Source: Syntrophomonas sp. (GTDB taxonomy: Bacteria; Bacillota; Syntrophomonadia; Syntrophomonadales; Syntrophomonadaceae). From it: a stretch of 64,000 nucleotides of DNA. The stretch covers positions 1 through 64,000 of the forward strand of contig JAENZE010000004.1 of assembly GCA_016841425.1 (NCBI GenBank), written 5' to 3'. The notes under the pieces are model-generated. The model did not search any database. It was not told the DNA's origin and saw only the letters and a list, made by a program, of their open reading frames with translations. Positions 3,943 to 13,960 of the stretch are shown here, piece after piece (the stretch's first letter is position 1; the number at the start of each line of letters is the position of its first letter). A program made the translations under genes and the position numbers.

Positions 3943-6051
3943 ATGAAATTAAGTGAAATAATGAGTACTGATCTGGTGGTTTTAAACCTGGCAAATACCA
4001 TAAGAGAGACCAGCCAGATTTTCTTGGATCACCAGATAGACGGTGCACCAGTAGTGAACGAAAAAGGAGAATTACTGGGATTATTAACTAAAAGCCATAT
4101 TTACCGGGTATTAGCCCAGGACGAAAATCCACAGATGATGGTGGGAGATCTAATGAAGCACGATATCATCGTAGGGCATCCAGATGAGAAAGTAAGAGAT
4201 CTTCTTGAGAATAACGTGGGGCGAATGCCAGTTGTAGATAAAAATGTTGTTATCGGAATGATTACCCGGACTGATCTGGCTAGAGCCTATTTTGACTCAT
4301 TCACTTCCATTTCTACTGAATTCTCCACCATACTAGATTCTACTCATAACTTAATAATATCTATAGATAGAAACGGTAAAATTAATGTATTGAATCGGGC
4401 AGCCGAAAAATTTCTTGGTTTAAAGAGCAGTGCGGTTCGTGGCCAGGATATTATGGGAATTATTCCCAATAGCGGCTTAATGGAAATCCTTAAGACAGGT
4501 CTCAGTAAGCCGGTTCAAAAAATAGAATTAAAGAATTGCACATTTATCTCCAATCGTACCCCGATCAAAAAACATGGTAAGATTCTCGGTGCTGTGGCGG
4601 TTCTTCAGGATATTTCCGAACTAGAAAGCATATCCAGAGAATTGGAGAACGTAAAAGAATTAAACGATGAGATGGATGCTATAATAGAATCCTCTCATGA
4701 TGGAATTTATCTAACCGATGGCGATGGTATTACTCTTCGGCTCAATGAAGCCTTTGAAAAACTTACTGGATTCAAAAGGAATGAACTGATAGGTCGCAAT
4801 GTTGAAGATTTGGTTAATGAAAAAGGAGTTGTTTCTGCATCGGTGAGTGCCCTGGTATTAAAAGAAAAAAGGCCCAAGACCATTATGCAGAAGACAATAA
4901 CTGGGAAGCTCGCCTTAACTACCGGAACCCCTGTTTTTGATAGAAAAGGCAAAATATTTCGAGTGGTTTCTAATGTAAGGGAGATAACGGAGTTAATGTT
5001 GCTGAAACAGCAACTGGAACAAGCTCAGGGATTAAGCAAACACTATGAATCCGAGCTGCGGTCCTTGCAGATGCAGTATTCAGGTTCAGAAAAACTTATA
5101 GTAAGTTCCAGGAAAATGAAAGATCTGCTGGAGACAGTTGTCCGCCTGGCCCAGGTTGATTCGACCGTATTAATAACCGGAGAATCGGGAACAGGCAAAG
5201 AACTTATTGCTGAAACGATACATAATAACAGCTTCCGAAAAAACGGGCCATTTATAAAAATTAATTGTGGAGCTATTGCTCATAATCTATTGGAAACTGA
5301 ATTATTCGGATATGAAGACGGCGCCTTTACCGGGGCTAAAAAAGGTGGCAAGGCTGGTTATTTCGAACTGGCGAGCGGAGGTACGCTTCTCCTGGATGAG
5401 ATAAGTGAGCTGCCTTTTAACTTACAGGCGAATTTATTGCGGGTAGTTCAAAGCAGAGAACTTATACGGGTAGGGGGAGAAAGAGCGATACCCATCGATG
5501 TACGTATTCTTGCTGCTACTAACCGGGATATTCTGGAGATGGTAGAAAAGAAGGAATTTCGAAAAGACCTCTATTACCGGTTGAATGTGGTCCCCGTTGA
5601 GGTCCCCCCTCTGCGGTCAAGGAAAGAAGAGATTCCCGTTCTGCTTGCTCATTTCGTTAAGTTATTTAATAAAAAATATAAAATGGATAAAGAGTTATCA
5701 AACAATGTGATTGATATCCTTATGGAATATGACTGGCCCGGTAATGTCCGAGAGTTGGAGAATATTGTGGAGAGATTGGTGGTAACCATACCTGGAAATA
5801 TTCTGTCCCGTGAAGACCTGCCCTCACATCTCAAACATAATATCAATCAGAGAAAGCACCCCCAGATCTCGGTTTCAGGCATCATGCCGCTTCGGGAAGC
5901 AGTTGAAGTTGTTGAAAAACAGATTCTGGAACAGGCCTATGCTCGTTACAAGGTTACACGGGAGGTTGCCAGACAATTAAACATAGATCCTTCTACAGTT
6001 CTGAGGAAAGCCGCCAAATACGGAATATCCCCAGGTGATCATAACCTATAA
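3943..6051 (+). CDS. Sigma-54-dependent activator with CBS pair, two PAS domains and Fis-type HTH
   Basis: Bacterial enhancer-binding protein of 702 residues. Order: tandem CBS domains (1-115), PAS 1 (about 125-230), PAS 2 (about 240-350), coiled linker, AAA+ domain (380-620) with Walker A GESGTGKE at 413-420, the sigma-54 contact loop GAFTGA at 460-465 and Walker B GGTLLLDEI at 479-487, then a Fis-type HTH at the C-terminus (VTREVARQLNIDPSTVLRKAAKYGI). CBS pairs usually bind adenosine nucleotides, so this protein may couple energy state and a PAS-sensed cue to transcription. It is followed by a terminator, a large palindrome and a sigma-54 promoter facing the beta-oxidation genes, which makes that operon its likely target. 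The ATG follows AGAGG at normal spacing. Confidence 0.92.
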   Translation: MKLSEIMSTDLVVLNLANTIRETSQIFLDHQIDGAPVVNEKGELLGLLTKSHIYRVLAQDENPQMMVGDLMKHDIIVGHPDEKVRDLLENNVGRMPVVDKNVVIGMITRTDLARAYFDSFTSISTEFSTILDSTHNLIISIDRNGKINVLNRAAEKFLGLKSSAVRGQDIMGIIPNSGLMEILKTGLSKPVQKIELKNCTFISNRTPIKKHGKILGAVAVLQDISELESISRELENVKELNDEMDAIIESSHDGIYLTDGDGITLRLNEAFEKLTGFKRNELIGRNVEDLVNEKGVVSASVSALVLKEKRPKTIMQKTITGKLALTTGTPVFDRKGKIFRVVSNVREITELMLLKQQLEQAQGLSKHYESELRSLQMQYSGSEKLIVSSRKMKDLLETVVRLAQVDSTVLITGESGTGKELIAETIHNNSFRKNGPFIKINCGAIAHNLLETELFGYEDGAFTGAKKGGKAGYFELASGGTLLLDEISELPFNLQANLLRVVQSRELIRVGGERAIPIDVRILAATNRDILEMVEKKEFRKDLYYRLNVVPVEVPPLRSRKEEIPVLLAHFVKLFNKKYKMDKELSNNVIDILMEYDWPGNVRELENIVERLVVTIPGNILSREDLPSHLKHNINQRKHPQISVSGIMPLREAVEVVEKQILEQAYARYKVTREVARQLNIDPSTVLRKAAKYGISPGDHNL

Positions 6052-6082
6052 TATCCGAATAACCAAGAATCAACAGAAAGTG

Positions 6083-6110
6083 ATAGACCCCTAATGGGGT
6101 CTATTTTTTT
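6083..6110 (+). terminator. Intrinsic terminator after the sigma-54 activator gene
   Basis: Perfect 9-bp stem ATAGACCCC (6083-6091) with GGGGTCTAT (6096-6104), 4-base loop, then a T run to 6110. It separates the activator transcript from the sigma-54 promoter further on. Confidence 0.9.
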
Positions 6111-6217
6111 GGCTACGTGCATTAGCAATCTGCTAAAATGCCGGCAGCATATCAAATAACCACTGCAAAATTACCTTCAAAGAAACGGGCGAATTCCTGG
6201 TATTGGATTCTTAAGTT

Positions 6218-6296
6218 CCGCAATATTGGGAAATATAAAAGACTATGGCCAAAGAACCGCAATATTGCAGCATAATGCTGCAATATTGCGGTTCTT
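6218..6296. promoter_or_regulatory. Palindromic upstream activating sequence for the sigma-54 activator
   Basis: Two perfect 22-base inverted arms (6252-6273 and 6275-6296) flank a single base at 6274. Each arm holds CCGCAATATTGC, whose core GCAATATTGC is itself palindromic. A third copy, CCGCAATATTGG, lies at 6218-6229. The cluster sits about 85-160 bases upstream of the -24 element, the usual place for an enhancer-binding protein. Binding by the adjacent activator is inference. Confidence 0.75.
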
Positions 6297-6379
6297 ATAT
6301 ATAAATATTCGCTGTCAAAGTGCTTCAAGCAATAAAAGAAACACTGCCTAAAACCCCGATAAATAGGGCTTCATAAACC

Positions 6380-6395
6380 TGGCACGCAGTTTGCT
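6380..6395 (+). promoter_or_regulatory. Sigma-54 (-24/-12) promoter of the beta-oxidation operon
   Basis: TGGCAC at 6380-6385, five bases, then TTGCT at 6391-6395: an exact match to the consensus TGGCAC-N5-TTGCW, with GG and GC at the required spacing. Transcription should start near 6406, leaving an untranslated leader of about 200 bases before the first gene at 6603. Nothing else is evident in the leader except the ribosome binding site GGGGAAAGGAG before 6603. Confidence 0.93.
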
Positions 6396-6602
6396 ATTAG
6401 TGACTAATGATGAGGTATTAAACCTATTGCATAATAAAGGGTCCAGGGAATGTTGGAGAGGGGGGATCTCAGTCATTATCATATTGTCAGGGTTGTATAT
6501 TGTTGGTCTGCTTGAATATTCAACCAGGCGGTTAGAGAGTAAAGGAAAGGTTTATCTGAAGAATCAGATGAGTAACGAGTAGGGGAAAGGAGACAGATTT
6601 TC

Positions 6603-7382
6603 ATGTACCGTAATATTCTCCTCAAAGATGAAGAGGGAATTAGCTTGATTACCATAAACCGTCCTAAGTATCTCAATGCTTTGGACAGAACTACGGTTGA
6701 AGAGCTTTCTTCGGTTATTGATCTGGCAGGCGCCGATGAAAAAATAAAGGTCATAATTCTTACTGGAGCAGGTGATAAGGCTTTCGTTGCCGGTGGAGAT
6801 ATCGCTTATATGGAGAACTTGACGGCTCTGGAAGCCAGGGAATTTGCTCTTTTCGGCATGGGCGTTCTAAGGAAAATCGAGAATCTGCCGAAACCAGTAA
6901 TTGCAGCTATCAATGGTTTTTGCCTGGGAGGCGGCTGTGAACTGGCTATGGCCTGTGATTTTCGTATTGCTTCATTGAATGCTAAATTCGGGCAACCCGA
7001 GGTAGGTCTGGGAGTAACTGCAGGATTTGGCGGTACGCAGCGCTTACCCCGATTGATAGGAGCAGGCATGGCCAAACAGCTGCATTATACCGGAGACATT
7101 ATTGATGCAGAAGAAGCACTGCGTATAGGGCTGGTCAATGAAGTGGTATCAGCAGGTGACCTTATAAATCATGTTAAGGGAATAGCCAACAGGGTCATAG
7201 CTAGAGGCCAGCTGGCAGTACGTTTTAGCAAGACCTGCATTAACGAAGGAATGCAAACTGATATAGACCGCGCTATGACTATAGAAGCAGATATCTTTAG
7301 TCTCTGCTTTAGCACTGAAGACCAAAAAGAAGGTATGAAAGCCTTCGTTGAAAAGAGAAAGCCCCTGTTTCAAGAAAGATAA
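6603..7382 (+). CDS. Enoyl-CoA hydratase (crotonase family)
   Basis: Hydrates trans-2-enoyl-CoA to 3-hydroxyacyl-CoA in the second step of beta-oxidation; cytosolic hexamer by family. At 259 residues it has the usual length. The oxyanion-hole segments FVAGGDI (61-67) and GFCLGGGCEL (105-114) are present, and both catalytic glutamates are in place: Glu113 (equivalent to rat Glu144) and Glu133 (equivalent to rat Glu164, in GQPEVGLG). It is the first gene after the sigma-54 promoter. The ATG follows GGGGAAAGGAG. Chain-length preference cannot be read from the sequence; a crotonyl-CoA or branched 2-methylcrotonyl-CoA hydratase is equally possible. Confidence 0.9.
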   Translation: MYRNILLKDEEGISLITINRPKYLNALDRTTVEELSSVIDLAGADEKIKVIILTGAGDKAFVAGGDIAYMENLTALEAREFALFGMGVLRKIENLPKPVIAAINGFCLGGGCELAMACDFRIASLNAKFGQPEVGLGVTAGFGGTQRLPRLIGAGMAKQLHYTGDIIDAEEALRIGLVNEVVSAGDLINHVKGIANRVIARGQLAVRFSKTCINEGMQTDIDRAMTIEADIFSLCFSTEDQKEGMKAFVEKRKPLFQER

Positions 7383-7447
7383 GCTAACTGGTTTAGGTCT
7401 GCCGTTCTAGAGAAATTATATCTAGACGATAAGGAGGAGAGTTTTTA

Positions 7448-8590
7448 ATGGAACGAATTTTGCCATTTACTGATGAACACAAGATGTTTCAAGAAGCTTT
7501 TTCGAAATTCGTAGCCAGTGAAATGGTACCCTATTACGCTGAGTGGGAAGAGAACTCCATAGTTTCCCGTGAAATCTTTAAAAAAATGGGGGATTATGGA
7601 TTTCTATGTCCCTGGGCAGAAGAAAAATACGGGGGGGCAGGAGCTGATTTCCTCTATTCAGTTATAGTTGTTGAAGAAATTGCCCGACAGGGCTGCAGGA
7701 GCGTCTTTGCATGGCTGCACAGTGATATTGTGGCTCCGTATATTGGTTCATTTGCCACCGAGGAACAAAAAGCACGTTGGCTGCCGGGCTGTGTAAGCGG
7801 AGAAAAAATTCTGGCAGTGGCCATGACCGAACCTGGAGCCGGCTCTGACCTTGCCGCAATGAGAACCAAAGCCGTCCAAGACGGGAATGAATATATTATC
7901 AATGGTTCAAAGACCTTTATTTCTAACGGTGTTTTAGCGGATCTGGTCATTGTAGCGGCCAAGACCGATCCAGCTGCCGGAACCAGGGGAATAACCCTGT
8001 TCGTCGTTGAAAGGGGCACCCCGGGTTTTGAACGAGGCAAACAGATTCAAAAAGTGGGATTGCATGCGCAGGATACCGCCGAGCTGTTCTTTGAAGATTG
8101 CCGCGTACCAGCCAGCAATGTACTGGGGGGGAAAGGCAGCGGTTTTAAGTGCCTGATGCAGAAGCTGCAGCAGGAAAGGCTGATGGTTTCATTAACGGCA
8201 CAAGCATCTGCGGAAAGATGTCTGCAGTTAACGCTGGATTATGTTAAGGAAAGGAATATTTTCGGCCAGCCGTTAAGCAAATTCCAGAATACTCAGTTTA
8301 CACTGGCAGAAATAGCGAGTGAGATCCAGGTGGGCAGAAGTTTCTTAGATGCACTCATTCTCCAGCATATGGCTGACAATGATGTGGTACAGGAAGTCAG
8401 TATGGCCAAATTATGGATCTGTGAAATGGAGAATCGAGTGGCTTCACGCTGCCTGCAGTTGTTCGGTGGCTATGGCTACTGTAAAGAGTACGAAATGTCC
8501 AGAATGTGGACAGATGCTCGGATTCAGACTATTTATGCGGGCACCTCGGAAGTTATGAAATTGATAATAAGTCGGGGTCTGGATCTCTAG
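7448..8590 (+). CDS. Acyl-CoA dehydrogenase, LCAD/IVD-type active site
   Basis: FAD enzyme of 380 residues for the first oxidation of acyl-CoA. The FAD/substrate signature MTEPGAGSDL is at 126-135 and the C-terminal helical domain ends in IYAGTSEVMKLIISRGL. In short- and medium-chain enzymes the catalytic base is the Glu in IYEGT; here that position is Ala364. A Glu is instead found at 243 (LQQERL), the position of the base in long-chain and isovaleryl-CoA dehydrogenases. That points to a long-chain or branched-chain substrate rather than plain butyryl-CoA. No electron-transfer flavoprotein genes are in the operon, so electrons must leave through ETF encoded elsewhere. GGAGGAGAG lies before the ATG. 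Confidence 0.9.
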   Translation: MERILPFTDEHKMFQEAFSKFVASEMVPYYAEWEENSIVSREIFKKMGDYGFLCPWAEEKYGGAGADFLYSVIVVEEIARQGCRSVFAWLHSDIVAPYIGSFATEEQKARWLPGCVSGEKILAVAMTEPGAGSDLAAMRTKAVQDGNEYIINGSKTFISNGVLADLVIVAAKTDPAAGTRGITLFVVERGTPGFERGKQIQKVGLHAQDTAELFFEDCRVPASNVLGGKGSGFKCLMQKLQQERLMVSLTAQASAERCLQLTLDYVKERNIFGQPLSKFQNTQFTLAEIASEIQVGRSFLDALILQHMADNDVVQEVSMAKLWICEMENRVASRCLQLFGGYGYCKEYEMSRMWTDARIQTIYAGTSEVMKLIISRGLDL

Positions 8591-8639
8591 GTCTAGAATC
8601 TCTGAAAACGACTAATCGTAAGCAAAGGAGAAATGATTT

Positions 8640-9401
8640 ATGAAGATTGAAGATAAGACAGCTATCATTTCCGGTGGAGCTTCAGGACTTGGTGAAGCAG
8701 CCGCACGAAGGCTGGCTCGATTAGGAGCCAAAGTGGTGCTGCTGGACCTGAATGAAGATCGGGGGAATGCCCTGGCTGAAGAGCTAGGGGTTGCTTTCAT
8801 AAAGACAGATATATGCAGCACTGAAGATATTAAGCAGGCCATAGAGTTTACAAGGGAAAAATACATGAGGATCGATATTGTAGTGAACTGTGCGGGAATA
8901 TCTTCCGGCATGAAGACTGCCAGCAAGAAAGGGTCGCATGATCTGGACTACTTCAAAAAGGTAATAAACATCAATCTTATTGGAATCTTTGATGTCATAC
9001 GTCAGTCAGCTTATCAAATGCTGCAAAACGACTTGAATGATGAAGGCGGACGTGGAGTCATGATCAATACCGCCTCAGTGGCCGCCTTTGACGGCCAGAT
9101 AGGCCAGGTAGCATATTCCGCCAGCAAGGCAGCCTTAGCGGGAATGACATTGCCAGTTGCCCGTGATCTTTCCGGTGACGGTATCAGAACTTGCACCATC
9201 GCGCCCGGACTCTTCAGCACGCCGATGATGGAAGCCCTTCCGGAACAGGTTAGAATAAATCTAGCCCAATCAGTTCCCTTTCCGCAAAAATTAGGCGATC
9301 CCGATGAATTTGCCATGCTGGTTCAACAGATTATTGAGAACCCCATGCTGAACGGTGAAACCATTCGCCTGGACGGGGCCATCCGGATGGCCCCTCGATA
9401 G
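8640..9401 (+). CDS. Short-chain 3-hydroxyacyl-CoA dehydrogenase (HSD10-like SDR)
   Basis: SDR of 253 residues whose whole-length pattern resembles type-2 3-hydroxyacyl-CoA dehydrogenase / 2-methyl-3-hydroxybutyryl-CoA dehydrogenase (HSD10). It has the glycine motif GGASGLG (12-18), Asp36 at the end of strand 2 (NAD preferred), NCAG (83-86) and the catalytic triad Ser146, Tyr159, Lys163. It takes the place of the usual two-domain 3-hydroxybutyryl-CoA dehydrogenase in this operon. In mitochondria the HSD10 family acts on isoleucine-derived 2-methyl-3-hydroxybutyryl-CoA, so a branched substrate is plausible. GCAAAGGAG lies before the start codon. General oxidoreductase function is sure; the exact substrate is inference. 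Confidence 0.85.
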   Translation: MKIEDKTAIISGGASGLGEAAARRLARLGAKVVLLDLNEDRGNALAEELGVAFIKTDICSTEDIKQAIEFTREKYMRIDIVVNCAGISSGMKTASKKGSHDLDYFKKVININLIGIFDVIRQSAYQMLQNDLNDEGGRGVMINTASVAAFDGQIGQVAYSASKAALAGMTLPVARDLSGDGIRTCTIAPGLFSTPMMEALPEQVRINLAQSVPFPQKLGDPDEFAMLVQQIIENPMLNGETIRLDGAIRMAPR

Positions 9402-9475
9402 GACAGCGGAAGGGGAGAAACAAAGGCTTTGAAATAGTAATTTAGCTCTTTTACGAATCAAAGGAGGAATGAATA

Positions 9476-10651
9476 ATGAGAAGAGTTGCTGTAATAGGTA
9501 CAGGTCACTCCAAATTCTGTTTCAACTCAGAAAAAACCCAGGTAGAAATGCTGGCCGAAGTGGCTTTGGACGCCATTAATGAAGCGAACATCACCCCGAA
9601 GGATGTTCAGGCAGTCAATGTAGGTAATGTTTTGGGCGATTTTGAAGAAGGTCAGGGTATGGTTCAGTCCTTCTTGGCCAACGATATAGGATGCTTTAAT
9701 GTAGCTGCCAGTCGATTTGAGGGAGCCTGCGCATCTGGCAGTATGGCAGTAAGGGATGCGGTCATGTGGGTTGCATCAGGGTATTATGACATCATGTTAG
9801 TTGGAGGTGTGGAAAAAGCAACCGCTATGGGGACCCCTTTAGCGACACGAACTTTTGCTATGTTTGGAGATAGCCGTTACGAATTCCCGGCCGGTTTTAC
9901 TTTTCCAGCGGTTTTCGCCCTCTTAGCCCACCTCTATTCCAATAAGTACGGTATACCAATGGCAGCCCTCAAAGAGCAGATGGCTGCCGTATCTGTACAG
10001 TCACACGAATATGCTATGAAAAATCCTAATGCCCAGATCCATAAGGCAATAAGCAAGGAAGATGTCTTGAAGAGCTTCATGGTTTCTACTCCTATACAAT
10101 TGCAAGATGCCTGCCCGTTCTCCGATGGAGCAGCCGCAATTGTTATCGCCTCGGAAGAGGCAGCGAAAAAACTGGTCAAAAAGCCGGTCTATTTCGCTGG
10201 CATCGGGCAGGCATCCTCTGGAAAACTGAGTTCCCAGCAAAAATATCTTCCGCGCATCCGGGCCAGAGAATTGGCGTCCCAACAGTCATACAGTATGGCG
10301 GGTTTGACCCCTGAAGACATGGATCTTTGCGAACTACATGACTGCTTTAGTATTGCTGCCATGATAGCTGCAGAGGGTCTTGGCTTCTTTGATTATGGTA
10401 CGTCAGGCCTGGCCTGGGAAAAAGGCGAAACCAGGATCGGGGGTAAAATTCCTATTAACCTTTCCGGTGGATTAAAGGCCAAGGGGCATCCCATTGGAGC
10501 CACCGGCGTATCCCAGGTATATGAAGTAACGCGTCAATTAAGAGGAGATATGGCAGAGCAAGGCAGACAGGTTGATGGAGCTAAAAACGGTATTATCGAT
10601 ACCCTGGGCGGAGACGGAGTACTAGTGAGCATGATTCTTTCAACTATGTAA
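9476..10651 (+). CDS. SCP2-type thiolase
   Basis: Thiolase-fold enzyme of 391 residues for CoA-dependent cleavage of 3-oxoacyl-CoA. Nucleophile Cys85 lies in EGACASGSMAVRDAV, and the second-half catalytic residues are His288 (HDCFS) and His338 (GHPIGATG). The replacement of the classical C-terminal CxG by the HDCF/GHP arrangement marks the SCP2/SCPx and archaeal-type thiolase subfamily, which commonly works with a DUF35 zinc-ribbon partner. Exactly such a gene follows 14 bases downstream. Rat SCPx thiolase accepts 2-methyl-branched 3-oxoacyl-CoAs, which fits the HSD10-like dehydrogenase next to it. The ATG has AAAGGAGGAAT upstream. Confidence 0.88.
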   Translation: MRRVAVIGTGHSKFCFNSEKTQVEMLAEVALDAINEANITPKDVQAVNVGNVLGDFEEGQGMVQSFLANDIGCFNVAASRFEGACASGSMAVRDAVMWVASGYYDIMLVGGVEKATAMGTPLATRTFAMFGDSRYEFPAGFTFPAVFALLAHLYSNKYGIPMAALKEQMAAVSVQSHEYAMKNPNAQIHKAISKEDVLKSFMVSTPIQLQDACPFSDGAAAIVIASEEAAKKLVKKPVYFAGIGQASSGKLSSQQKYLPRIRARELASQQSYSMAGLTPEDMDLCELHDCFSIAAMIAAEGLGFFDYGTSGLAWEKGETRIGGKIPINLSGGLKAKGHPIGATGVSQVYEVTRQLRGDMAEQGRQVDGAKNGIIDTLGGDGVLVSMILSTM

Positions 10652-10665
10652 AGGAGGGTTACAGG

Positions 10666-11076
10666 ATGGAATATAAGCTTACATTCAAGGATTATAACCA
10701 GGCACTTAAGCGAGATAAATTAATGGGATTGAAGTGTAATGATTGCGGGGCTTTTACCTGCCCTCCTATGATGGTCTGCGGAGAATGTGCCAGAACTAAC
10801 CATGAAATTGCTCAGTTGAGCGGGAAGGGAAAGATTGTTACCTTTACTACCTCTTTCATCGCAGCGGAGGGTCGTGAAAACGAAGTTCCGTATACTATTG
10901 TAATGGTGGAGCTGGATGAAGGACCTTGGATAATGGGTAATTTGGTAGCTATTGATCCAAAAAAAGTAACTATGGATATTGTGGGCAAACCGGTGCAATT
11001 AGGTAATAGAGTGTACCCTGCCGACAAGTATTCTAACGGGGATATGGCCAGACCGGCCTTTAGTTTGCTGGAGTAA
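10666..11076 (+). CDS. DUF35 zinc-ribbon/OB-fold acyl-CoA-associated protein
   Basis: Protein of 136 residues with an N-terminal rubredoxin-like zinc ribbon (CNDCG at 24-28 and CGEC at 38-41) and a C-terminal OB fold (50-130), the layout of DUF35. In archaea such proteins bridge thiolase and HMG-CoA synthase and hand over CoA intermediates. Immediate coupling to an SCP2-type thiolase (14 bases apart, GGAGGG before the ATG) argues for a structural or substrate-channelling subunit of that thiolase. No catalytic residue is expected. Confidence 0.87.
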   Translation: MEYKLTFKDYNQALKRDKLMGLKCNDCGAFTCPPMMVCGECARTNHEIAQLSGKGKIVTFTTSFIAAEGRENEVPYTIVMVELDEGPWIMGNLVAIDPKKVTMDIVGKPVQLGNRVYPADKYSNGDMARPAFSLLE

Positions 11077-11262
11077 GCGGCGAAACCAAGTGCTCTGCCG
11101 ATATGACTTGTAGGTGCTCCATAAGACGGTTGATCTGGCAGGATATTTCCTTCATTAGACTGGGGTGGATATGCCCCGTATGACAAGAATGTATGTTTGA
11201 ATTAGATGCCTCTCTGCCAATACAGTAAAAGATAGAGGAAAGGTATTGACTTATGGCAACGA

Positions 11263-11349
11263 ACGGAAGGGCTGATCAACATAGCCCATCCCAAGGTTAG
11301 CGAAGATCTGATAAAGGCTCCAGAAGTAAAGCTTCTGGTGGAAATATAA
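11263..11349 (+). pseudogene. Relic of a CoA-transferase C-terminus
   Basis: In one frame this short stretch reads TEGLINIAHPKVSEDLIKA and onward to a stop at 11347. It resembles the end of the acetyl-CoA hydrolase/transferase family (compare RARELISIAHPDLRGELLA in the intact gene just downstream). There is no upstream coding sequence in this frame, so it is the tail of a deleted copy. The remaining bases from 11077 to 11384 hold no gene I can recognise. Confidence 0.6.
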
Positions 11350-11384
11350 CAGAATGACGGCAAAATATTATAGGAGGAGTTTAT

Positions 11385-12725
11385 ATGTCAAAAATTGAAT
11401 ATCAAAAAAAGTTGATATCTATAGAAGAGGCTGCTAGAACTGTTCAATCGGGTGATGTAATTGGTACTGGCCTAGCTATCGGAGCCGGCTCACCAGAGAT
11501 TTTTAACGCCATTCTGGATCGATATGAAGAATTGCATGATGTAAGAATATTGGATACTATTGGGCTGTACCCATTCAAATTTCTAGATCCTGAATTCATG
11601 ATCAAACTTGATGGCCATATTAATTATATGCCAGCTTTCAGTATTGCTACCGGCCGGAAGATGAATAATTCCAAGCAGGCTGATTTTTATCCGGTTATGA
11701 GCTCGGACCTGGCCGATAAGTTTTGGCACAAATCAGATATATTCATTGCTATGGTCACTCCACCGAACGAAAGTGGCTATGTAAATCTCGGTCTTACAAA
11801 TTTCTATACCATGGAAACTATTCGGGAAGGAAGAGCATCCGGAAAACAACGGGTTACCATAGGAGAAGTTAATGATCAGATGCCGGTAATATATGGGAAT
11901 AATTGGATGCATATCTCGGAATTCGATTATTTTGTGGAAAACTCAACCCGGATACCAACCTTTGGCAGGGGTACCCCTACAGAAGCAGATAAAAGTATAG
12001 CCGAGTATGTGCTGGAATTGATTAATGATGGCGATACGATTCAGATGGGGATAGGGGGTATACCGGAAGCAGTTGTTAGTGGTTTAGAGGGAAAGACAGA
12101 CCTGGGAGTACTCACTGAAATGTTTCCTATAGGGTTGCCGCAGCTGGTGGCTAAAGGCATTGTTACTAATAACCGCAAGCCATTTCATAAAGGAATCACA
12201 GTTGCCACCTTTTGTATGGGAGACGAAGAAATGTATAAATATGTAACGGAGAACCCGGCATGCGAATTTTATCCTTCCTCATATACCAACAATCCCGTTT
12301 TCATTGCCCAGCACCCCAATATGGTAGCCATGAATATGGCATTAATGGTCGACCTTAGTGGACAAATAAATTCCGAGGGATTGGGTCATACCCAAATCAG
12401 CGGTTCTGGAGGACAGTTGGATTTTATGATTGGATCATTCTGGTCAGAAGGCGGTAAAGGGATTACCCTGGTGAGTTCCTCCCGGGCCATGAAAGATGGT
12501 TCGCTGTCATCTTCCATAGTCCCAGAGCTGCCTCCAGGTTCCCCGATCACCGTTCCCCGCACCTATGCCCAGTATGTAGTCAGCGAATATGGTATAGCCA
12601 ACCTGAGATATAAATCCAGGACCGAGCGTGCCAGGGAACTAATTTCCATAGCCCATCCTGACCTGCGGGGGGAATTACTTGCCAGTATGAAGAAGAATTT
12701 CTATCCATTTGCTAGTATGAAATAG
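11385..12725 (+). CDS. Acetyl-CoA hydrolase/transferase family acyl-CoA:carboxylate CoA-transferase
   Basis: Enzyme of 446 residues of the 4-hydroxybutyrate/butyrate CoA-transferase type. It has the glycine-rich loop GIGGIPEAVV and the catalytic Glu245 in LTEMF, which forms the glutamyl-CoA thioester in this family. It probably moves CoA between acetyl-CoA and the incoming acid, activating the fatty acid without ATP; this is the standard activation route in syntrophic fatty-acid oxidisers. It is the last gene of the operon, 300 bases after DUF35, with a strong site (TAGGAGGAG) and followed by a terminator. A relic of a second copy lies directly upstream, which suggests an old tandem duplication. 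Confidence 0.88.
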   Translation: MSKIEYQKKLISIEEAARTVQSGDVIGTGLAIGAGSPEIFNAILDRYEELHDVRILDTIGLYPFKFLDPEFMIKLDGHINYMPAFSIATGRKMNNSKQADFYPVMSSDLADKFWHKSDIFIAMVTPPNESGYVNLGLTNFYTMETIREGRASGKQRVTIGEVNDQMPVIYGNNWMHISEFDYFVENSTRIPTFGRGTPTEADKSIAEYVLELINDGDTIQMGIGGIPEAVVSGLEGKTDLGVLTEMFPIGLPQLVAKGIVTNNRKPFHKGITVATFCMGDEEMYKYVTENPACEFYPSSYTNNPVFIAQHPNMVAMNMALMVDLSGQINSEGLGHTQISGSGGQLDFMIGSFWSEGGKGITLVSSSRAMKDGSLSSSIVPELPPGSPITVPRTYAQYVVSEYGIANLRYKSRTERARELISIAHPDLRGELLASMKKNFYPFASMK

Positions 12726-12750
12726 AGAGGCTGTTAGTATAAGCTTTGGC

Positions 12751-12789
12751 AAAACCGCTTTAGGGTTTTTAACTTTAAAGCGGTTTTGT
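12751..12789 (+). terminator. Terminator of the beta-oxidation operon
   Basis: CAAAACCGCTTTA (12751-12763) pairs perfectly with TAAAGCGGTTTTG (12777-12789). The T-rich right arm supplies the U tract. Confidence 0.85.
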
Positions 12790-13499: not shown

Positions 13500-13701
13500 A
13501 TGGGCAATTTACAGACATAGCTGTTGAAGAAAGCTAACGAAGTCCAAGAAAAGAACGCCAAAGTCATGGCCCAGATCCCAGAGAAGTATCACACTATGTT
13601 CATTTCCTGAGTTCAGCCAAAATCACCGAAAAGATATTGAGTGTGAATTAAAAGCTGCTGGTTACTACACCACGGAAAGAGGTACATTTTTTAAAATTTA
13701 A
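13500..13701 (+). pseudogene. Broken small helical protein gene
   Basis: A good ribosome binding site (GAAAGGAGTG) precedes ATG 13500, but the frame is stopped by TAG at codon 7. It continues as LLKKANEVQEKNAKVMAQI until a TGA, then resumes in another frame as KDIECELKAAGYYTTERGTF before a final stop. Two stops and a frameshift in one continuous similarity-like block mark decay. The family is not known to me. It lies about 180 bases from a tRNA gene, a common site for inserted elements. Confidence 0.5.
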
Positions 13702-13883
13702 AATGTATATTTAACGGTGGCTGGTAAAAATTCCATGATAGTAAATATCAGCGGTTACTGGTACATAAGCTTTGGTGATACTACAGATGAAATTATGATT
13801 ATTAACCGGCGCACCAATCGGCGCACAAATTACTTATATAAAAAAAGTAACCCGATAAATCGGGTGTTACAAGTCATGAATAT

Positions 13884-13960
13884 TGGTGGGCCATGAAGGA
13901 ATCGAACCTTCAACCTTCTGATTAAGAGTCAGCTGCTCTGCCTGATTGAGCTAATGGCCC
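13884..13960 (-). tRNA. tRNA-Lys (anticodon CTT)
   Basis: Read on the minus strand, the acceptor stem GGGCCAT pairs with ATGGCCC. The anticodon arm CTGA-CTCTTAA-TCAG gives anticodon CTT for lysine AAG codons, and the T arm is GAAGG-TTCGATT-CCTTC. The 3' CCA is encoded. The gene stands alone and shares its strand with htpG. Confidence 0.95.

Follow-up and report, generated by a model that had tools for sequence, protein, structure and literature searches.

The window (the whole 64,000-nucleotide stretch that was analysed) carries, side by side, the gene of a sigma-54 activator and a catabolic operon, and we consider it quite probable (about 0.8) that they form a one-component sigma-54 switch in which the activator turns on the adjacent operon, most likely one for 2-methyl-branched short acyl-CoA. 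The initial annotation had described an activator, its terminator, an enhancer-like site, a promoter and six genes in that order; all of them were found in the same order and the observation of this layout is confirmed as real. The genes, the promoter and the sites were read from the sequence, as were the conservation of these parts and the matching of each site type to an activator type, and what is said of binding, activation, substrate and signal is our interpretation of these. In the proposed mechanism the activator would be made from its own gene, with its transcript ended at 6105, and would bind phased GCAA-NN-TTGC palindromes lying 100-215 bp upstream of the promoter, recognising GCAANNTTGC DNA; its GAFTGA loop would then contact RNA polymerase-sigma-54 at 6380-6395 and the adjacent operon would be switched on.

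The Syntrophomonas bacterium studied here lives by handing its electrons to methane producers. The regulation of metabolism in syntrophic fatty-acid oxidisers is little known (PMC4324140). The circuit type is already known from Clostridia, where activators, CBS-bearing ones included, stand beside single catabolic operons that have a sigma-54 promoter and several sites upstream of it (PMC6615313), and what is new here is a group outside that study, in which Syntrophomonas is not mentioned. The definite activator, the candidate binding sites and the promoter are open to study in vitro, since a single purified protein and a 300-bp DNA would suffice. The features of the activator gene and of the control region are as follows.

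3943-6051, plus strand: sigma-54 activator (enhancer-binding protein) of 702 aa with the order CBS-CBS-PAS-PAS-AAA+-HTH, from domain matches; orthologues 70-94% identical in 7 other loci
3943-4290, plus strand: CBS pair, aa 1-116, from Pfam PF00571 in two stretches, the PDB relatives MJ1225 and AcuB, and alignment
5098-5598, plus strand: AAA+ sigma-54 interaction domain (Sigma54_activat, PF00158, 4.9e-68)
5884-6030, plus strand: HTH_50 DNA-binding domain (PF18024, 8.6e-12), recognition segment IDPSTVLRKAAKYGI
6082-6105, plus strand: intrinsic terminator for the activator gene with a T run behind it, from a terminator scan
6165-6174, plus strand: distal candidate activator site GCAAAATTAC, at -215 from the promoter start, from motif search; position filled in all 8 orthologues
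6220-6229, plus strand: candidate activator site GCAATATTGG, at -160, a third copy from motif search
6252-6296, no strand: perfect inverted repeat with 22-nt arms (6252-6273 and 6275-6296) holding two candidate sites GCAATATTGC
6354-6371, plus strand: short inverted-repeat element of the CCC-N8-GGGCTT type beside the -24 box, from folding and orthologue comparison
6380-6395, plus strand: sigma-54 promoter TGGCACGCAGTTTGCT (-24/-12), exact match to TGGCAC-N5-TTGCT

The activator bears the marks of a sigma-54 enhancer-binding protein: an AAA+ domain with GAFTGA (5320-5337, read from the sequence), a C-terminal HTH and a sigma-54 gene in the same genome. The activator with CBS and PAS domains and GAFTGA described initially was found again, with two CBS and two PAS domains, and the terminator placed behind it was located at 6082-6105 ahead of its T run. 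The 3.58-Mb genome holds a single sigma-54 gene (PF04552, 3e-64), 34 strong AAA+ activator matches and 10 matches to the activator's own family at E below 1e-100, the activator itself counted and some of the ten beginning only at the PAS or AAA+ part. The closest named locus is that of Syntrophomonas sp. B5_bin.5, whose activator is 94% identical, and in the S. wolfei methylbutyratica relative (L042) the identity is 48% from aa 126 on, with no intact CBS motifs. The best NCBIfam match is PrdR, the proline reductase activator, with 520.2 bits against its cut-off of 795, too low for the activator to be classed as PrdR, and the published site type and target of PrdR are unlike those seen here.

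The exact TGGCAC-N5-TTGCT promoter of the initial annotation is the only match of this pattern in the window (0.07 expected), and the operon transcript would be expected to start near 6406 from its placement. Across the genome the pattern has 20 matches against 2 for the reversed pattern, and for 12 of the 20 an activator AAA+ domain is found no more than 3 kb away (about 6% expected). A GG-N10-GC core within TGGCAC-N5-TTGCW is conserved among relatives: it lies between activator and operon in 8/8 orthologous loci, as TGGCACGCAGTTTGCT, TGGCATGGTTTTTGCG, TGGCACAGATTTTGCT and similar sequences. The sigma-70 scan for the operon gave nothing convincing, with a single 9/12 match (plus strand, 6454-6482), and sigma-70-like matches in the control region were fewer than in shuffles; a sigma-70 promoter as the driver of the operon was set aside on these weak and rare matches. 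The element at 6354-6371 keeps its form but not its sequence in most orthologues, and can fold into a hairpin whose end lies some 8-10 bp before the -24 box (window, L032, L033, L034, L035, L045), with a mean folding z of -2.0 in orthologues against +0.3 in paralogues; it may insulate the promoter as a weak terminator or serve as a further site of binding.

Upstream of the promoter the enhancer-like site noticed initially became sharper than had been reported, as a set of phased GCAA-NN-TTGC palindromes at fixed positions of about -99, -120 and -214. Repeated dyad sites, specific to the activator type, lie within the range of 80-250 bp upstream that would be expected of an enhancer. Across the 8 loci there are 11 perfect copies upstream of the promoters, where dinucleotide shuffles give 0.24 (maximum 3), and at one mismatch or fewer 31 against 3.7 (maximum 10), with none between promoter and first gene in the 8 loci. 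At the one-mismatch cut-off the start positions -119 and -214 are filled in 8/8 loci and -99 in 6/8, and the distances between them, 21 and about 95 bp, come to roughly 2 and 9 helical turns. In the window the two GCAATATTGC sites stand at 6259-6268 and 6280-6289, spaced 21 bp, and the inverted repeat 6252-6296 is simply this -121/-100 site pair with matching flanks. A 21-bp pair with fewer than 2 mismatches occurs in the 3.58-Mb genome only here, which suggests that the activator probably has one target operon.

The inverted repeat at 6252-6296 might be read as a transcription terminator or a mobile repeat and not as an activator site, since it forms a long perfect hairpin in single strand and its inner stem scored as terminator-like in the scan. 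This reading is very improbable: a proper terminator exists already at 6082-6105, the full repeat has no T run after it, and in relatives its arms vary whereas the GCAA/TTGC cores and their positions are constant. It was rejected because L033, L034 and L039 retain the cores without the long hairpin and such a site pair occurs once in the genome. An Rfam scan of the control region gave chance-level matches only, all below gathering scores; most of them were to microRNA models from eukaryotes and fell on the inverted repeat.

The sites go together with the activator, because paralogous activators have a different dyad. The window-type activators (8 orthologues and L163, 9 in all) were compared with 17 paralogous loci in which a sigma-54 promoter could be recognised behind the activator: GCAA-NN-TTGC lies upstream in 9/9 of the former and 3/17 of the latter, whereas a GTTGC-N6/7-GCAAC dyad (at most 2 mismatches) is found in 16/17 paralogous loci and as 2 weak matches among the window type (Fisher 7e-5 and 4e-4 for these contrasts, the sequences being related and not independent). 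The recognition segment of the window type usually reads IDPSTVLRKAA, that of most paralogues DASTVVRKAA or NASTVVRKAA. The link of activator, sites, promoter and operon drawn initially finds support in the conserved placing of promoter and sites across 8 loci and in a site that is specific to the activator. Site motifs are supplied in this way for one branch of the large CBS-PAS activator family and for its paralogues; L008-L030, loci of paralogous CBS-PAS activators, carry the separate GTTGC-N6/7-GCAAC dyad in their upstream regions ahead of the promoters, a ready motif for reconstructing the regulons of the family. Counted against the proposed switch is a congener (G015, locus L161) in which the operon stands behind a 58% identical activator and the promoter is followed by an additional stretch of about 1 kb, and the other site type is present there once with one mismatch; activator and site have apparently been exchanged together.

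The clostridial sigma-54 regulons (Nie et al. 2019, PMC6615313) likewise have a one-component activator beside a single target operon and several sites 100-250 bp upstream of a -24/-12 promoter, with genes of fermentation or amino-acid catabolism as targets. Compared with the TGT-N10-12-ACA type described in that study, the one type taken for comparison, the GCAA-NN-TTGC site is unlike, and so is the operon, with its HSD10/SCP2-type enzymes and its lack of Etf genes. By its description, a Syntrophomonas system is of the same broad class and the same genus.

The circuit is conserved, as far as sequence comparison tells, across several genera of Syntrophomonadaceae. The orthologous set comprises the window and 7 other loci, with activators 70-94% identical and part or all of the same operon after them; these loci are related to one another and their counts are not independent. 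The promoter search in relatives was extended by L161, L163, L164 and L165, four further genomes found via the operon genes and not by activator orthology, in which the activator is more distant or no activator is adjacent; a sigma-54 promoter lies upstream of the same operon genes there too. The initial annotation had named the loss of both promoter and site, in close relatives with the operon retained, as evidence against the circuit, and the reverse was seen, the promoter being kept even where operon genes are deleted. L033, L034, L035 and L164 show in-frame or near in-frame internal deletions in the hydratase (ECH), the acyl-CoA dehydrogenase (ACD) or the short-chain dehydrogenase (SDR), while the promoter, thiolase and OB genes stay. 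In L035 little is left of ACD and SDR in the space from promoter to thiolase (SDR codons 1-25 run straight into 236-253), an ECH stretch (230-244) is fused to ACD (356-373) in L033, in L034 only the last 20 ACD codons are left ahead of SDR, and in L164 ACD lacks residues 61-266. All four are draft metagenome assemblies in which single cases could be assembly errors, but several assemblies are involved. The remnants after the promoter in L033, L034 and L035 indicate that deletions took genes and spared the control region; since relatives have lost ACD or SDR, the operon does not encode a complete pathway everywhere, which counts against the reading given here.

The six-gene catabolic operon claimed behind the promoter was found with its six genes in order at 6603-12725.

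6603-7382, plus strand: enoyl-CoA hydratase (ECH, crotonase family), from profile matches
7448-8590, plus strand: acyl-CoA dehydrogenase (ACD), from profile and structure matches and residue reading
8640-9401, plus strand: HSD10-type short-chain 3-hydroxyacyl-CoA dehydrogenase (SDR), from a profile match; closest PDB entry HSD10-type
9476-10651, plus strand: SCP2-type/archaeal-type thiolase, from profile and PDB matches
10666-11076, plus strand: Zn-ribbon/OB-fold (ChsH2-type) protein (OB), likely the partner of the thiolase, from a profile match
11272-11349, plus strand: remnant of a second CoA-transferase, 25 codons, LINIAHPKVSEDLIKAPEVKLLVEI; intact copy in the congener G015 (L161)
11385-12725, plus strand: CoA-transferase of the 4-hydroxybutyrate/butyryl-CoA:acetate type, from profile matches
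12750-12788, plus strand: inverted repeat after the last gene, a possible operon terminator seen by eye, its loop too long for the scan

The enzyme types favour 2-methyl-branched acids. The ACD has Ala at the MCAD catalytic Glu position (IYAGT) and a Glu in its QQERL segment, which we take to be the LCAD/IVD arrangement, seen in enzymes accepting branched chains, and its closest PDB entries are the Geobacillus-type structure 2pg0 and then LCAD; those of the thiolase are archaeal acetoacetyl-CoA thiolase, benzoylsuccinyl-CoA thiolase and SCP2 thiolases. Elsewhere, in other organisms, 2-methyl-branched intermediates are substrates of HSD10 and of SCP2 thiolase. By sequence type, then, the operon combines an HSD10-type dehydrogenase, an SCP2-type thiolase and an ACD with its Glu in the LCAD/IVD position, and two strains of Syntrophomonas are known to use 2-methylbutyrate (PMC5017805). 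We therefore lean towards 2-methylbutyrate or a similar acid as the substrate, which indicates a candidate operon for 2-methylbutyrate oxidation; beta-oxidation, as initially annotated, stands, and is refined in that the enzyme types favour 2-methyl-branched acyl-CoA over butyrate, so that generic butyrate oxidation is probably not its role. The 2-methylbutyrate candidates of S. wolfei methylbutyratica are single genes, known here by their published names (PMC5017805), a point counted against the proposed reading. The pathway would run from CoA transfer through LCAD/IVD-type dehydrogenation, hydration and HSD10-type dehydrogenation to SCP2-type thiolysis, turning 2-methylbutyrate into acetyl-CoA and propionyl-CoA.

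The main alternative is that the same circuit drives an operon for straight-chain short or medium fatty acids such as butyrate, with PAS sensing acyl-CoA or the fatty acid. HSD10 and LCAD accept straight chains too. The crotonase matches short-chain enoyl-CoA hydratase, the CoA-transferase is of butyryl/4-hydroxybutyrate type, and clostridial sigma-54 regulons include crt-hbd-thl-bcd operons (PMC6615313). Three operon enzymes are, however, of types used on 2-methyl substrates, and G015 (L161) has in addition a CaiB/racemase-like gene, in which the stretch AGHDLNY agrees with 2-methylacyl-CoA racemase but the overall score is equal for CoA-transferase; we hold straight-chain substrates possible and clearly less probable than 2-methyl-branched ones.

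That CaiB-family gene and a second CoA-transferase lie in L161 between OB and CoA-transferase, where the window has a gap of 308 bp with the remnant inside. The CaiB-family gene may be an alpha-methylacyl-CoA racemase, though not with certainty, because CoA-transferase gives an equal score. A second cluster in G000 (contig 8, 1-16000; L167) has homologues of ACD, thiolase, OB, SDR and CoA-transferase, the best copies 53-71% identical to those of the window, with another activator nearby, and its CaiB-like gene shares 55% identity with the one in L161.

The signal may be a CoA ester or redox state via PAS, an adenosyl compound via CBS, or both. The CBS pair, whose repeats end in GLLTKSH and GMITRTD, aligns with its nearest solved relatives MJ1225 and AcuB. 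In AcuB numbering the repeat-2 site Thr-x-Thr-Asp is kept (T108, T110, D111), whereas Asp33-Gly34 replace the phosphate clamp Arg33-His34 and His52 replaces Asp52. Among homologues with CBS motifs the repeat 1 His in place of the second-site Asp is kept in nearly all, and the repeat 2 T-R-x-D motif is present in most, its Asp in nearly all. By comparison with the AcuB/AMPK-gamma type a ribose-binding Asp is thus found in repeat 2 only and the clamp residues are replaced, so that two sites of the AcuB kind seem implausible, whereas a single adenosyl-type site is plausible. The main signal may come in through the two PAS domains.

CBS pairs bind SAM and further ligands too, and this tells against the suggestion in the initial annotation that adenine nucleotides are sensed by the CBS domains and the operon is thereby tied to energy charge, as do the repeat 1 His and the Asp-Gly at the clamp. 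AcuB, alignable with the pair along its full length and sharing the one ribose-binding Asp motif, binds AMP/ADP/ATP and is a reported sensor of energy charge (PMC13121692), and the T-R-x-D motif is widespread among CBS-bearing homologues; AcuB is also reported to bind Ap4A (PMC13039410). It differs in having an ACT domain, in not being a transcription factor and in the Arg-His clamp and second Asp that are replaced in the activator. Gating by energy charge seems doubtful to us. A slightly less probable, speculative variant is that one adenosyl and one altered CBS site gate the activator by nucleotide status, a design repeated in CBS-bearing paralogues each with its own promoter; if true, the syntroph would transcribe branched-acid oxidation only at workable energy charge.

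Downstream of the operon, interrupted reading frames at 13500-13720 look like gene remnants and adjoin a tRNA gene.

13884-13960, minus strand: tRNA-Lys (ctt), beside the stretch 13500-13720
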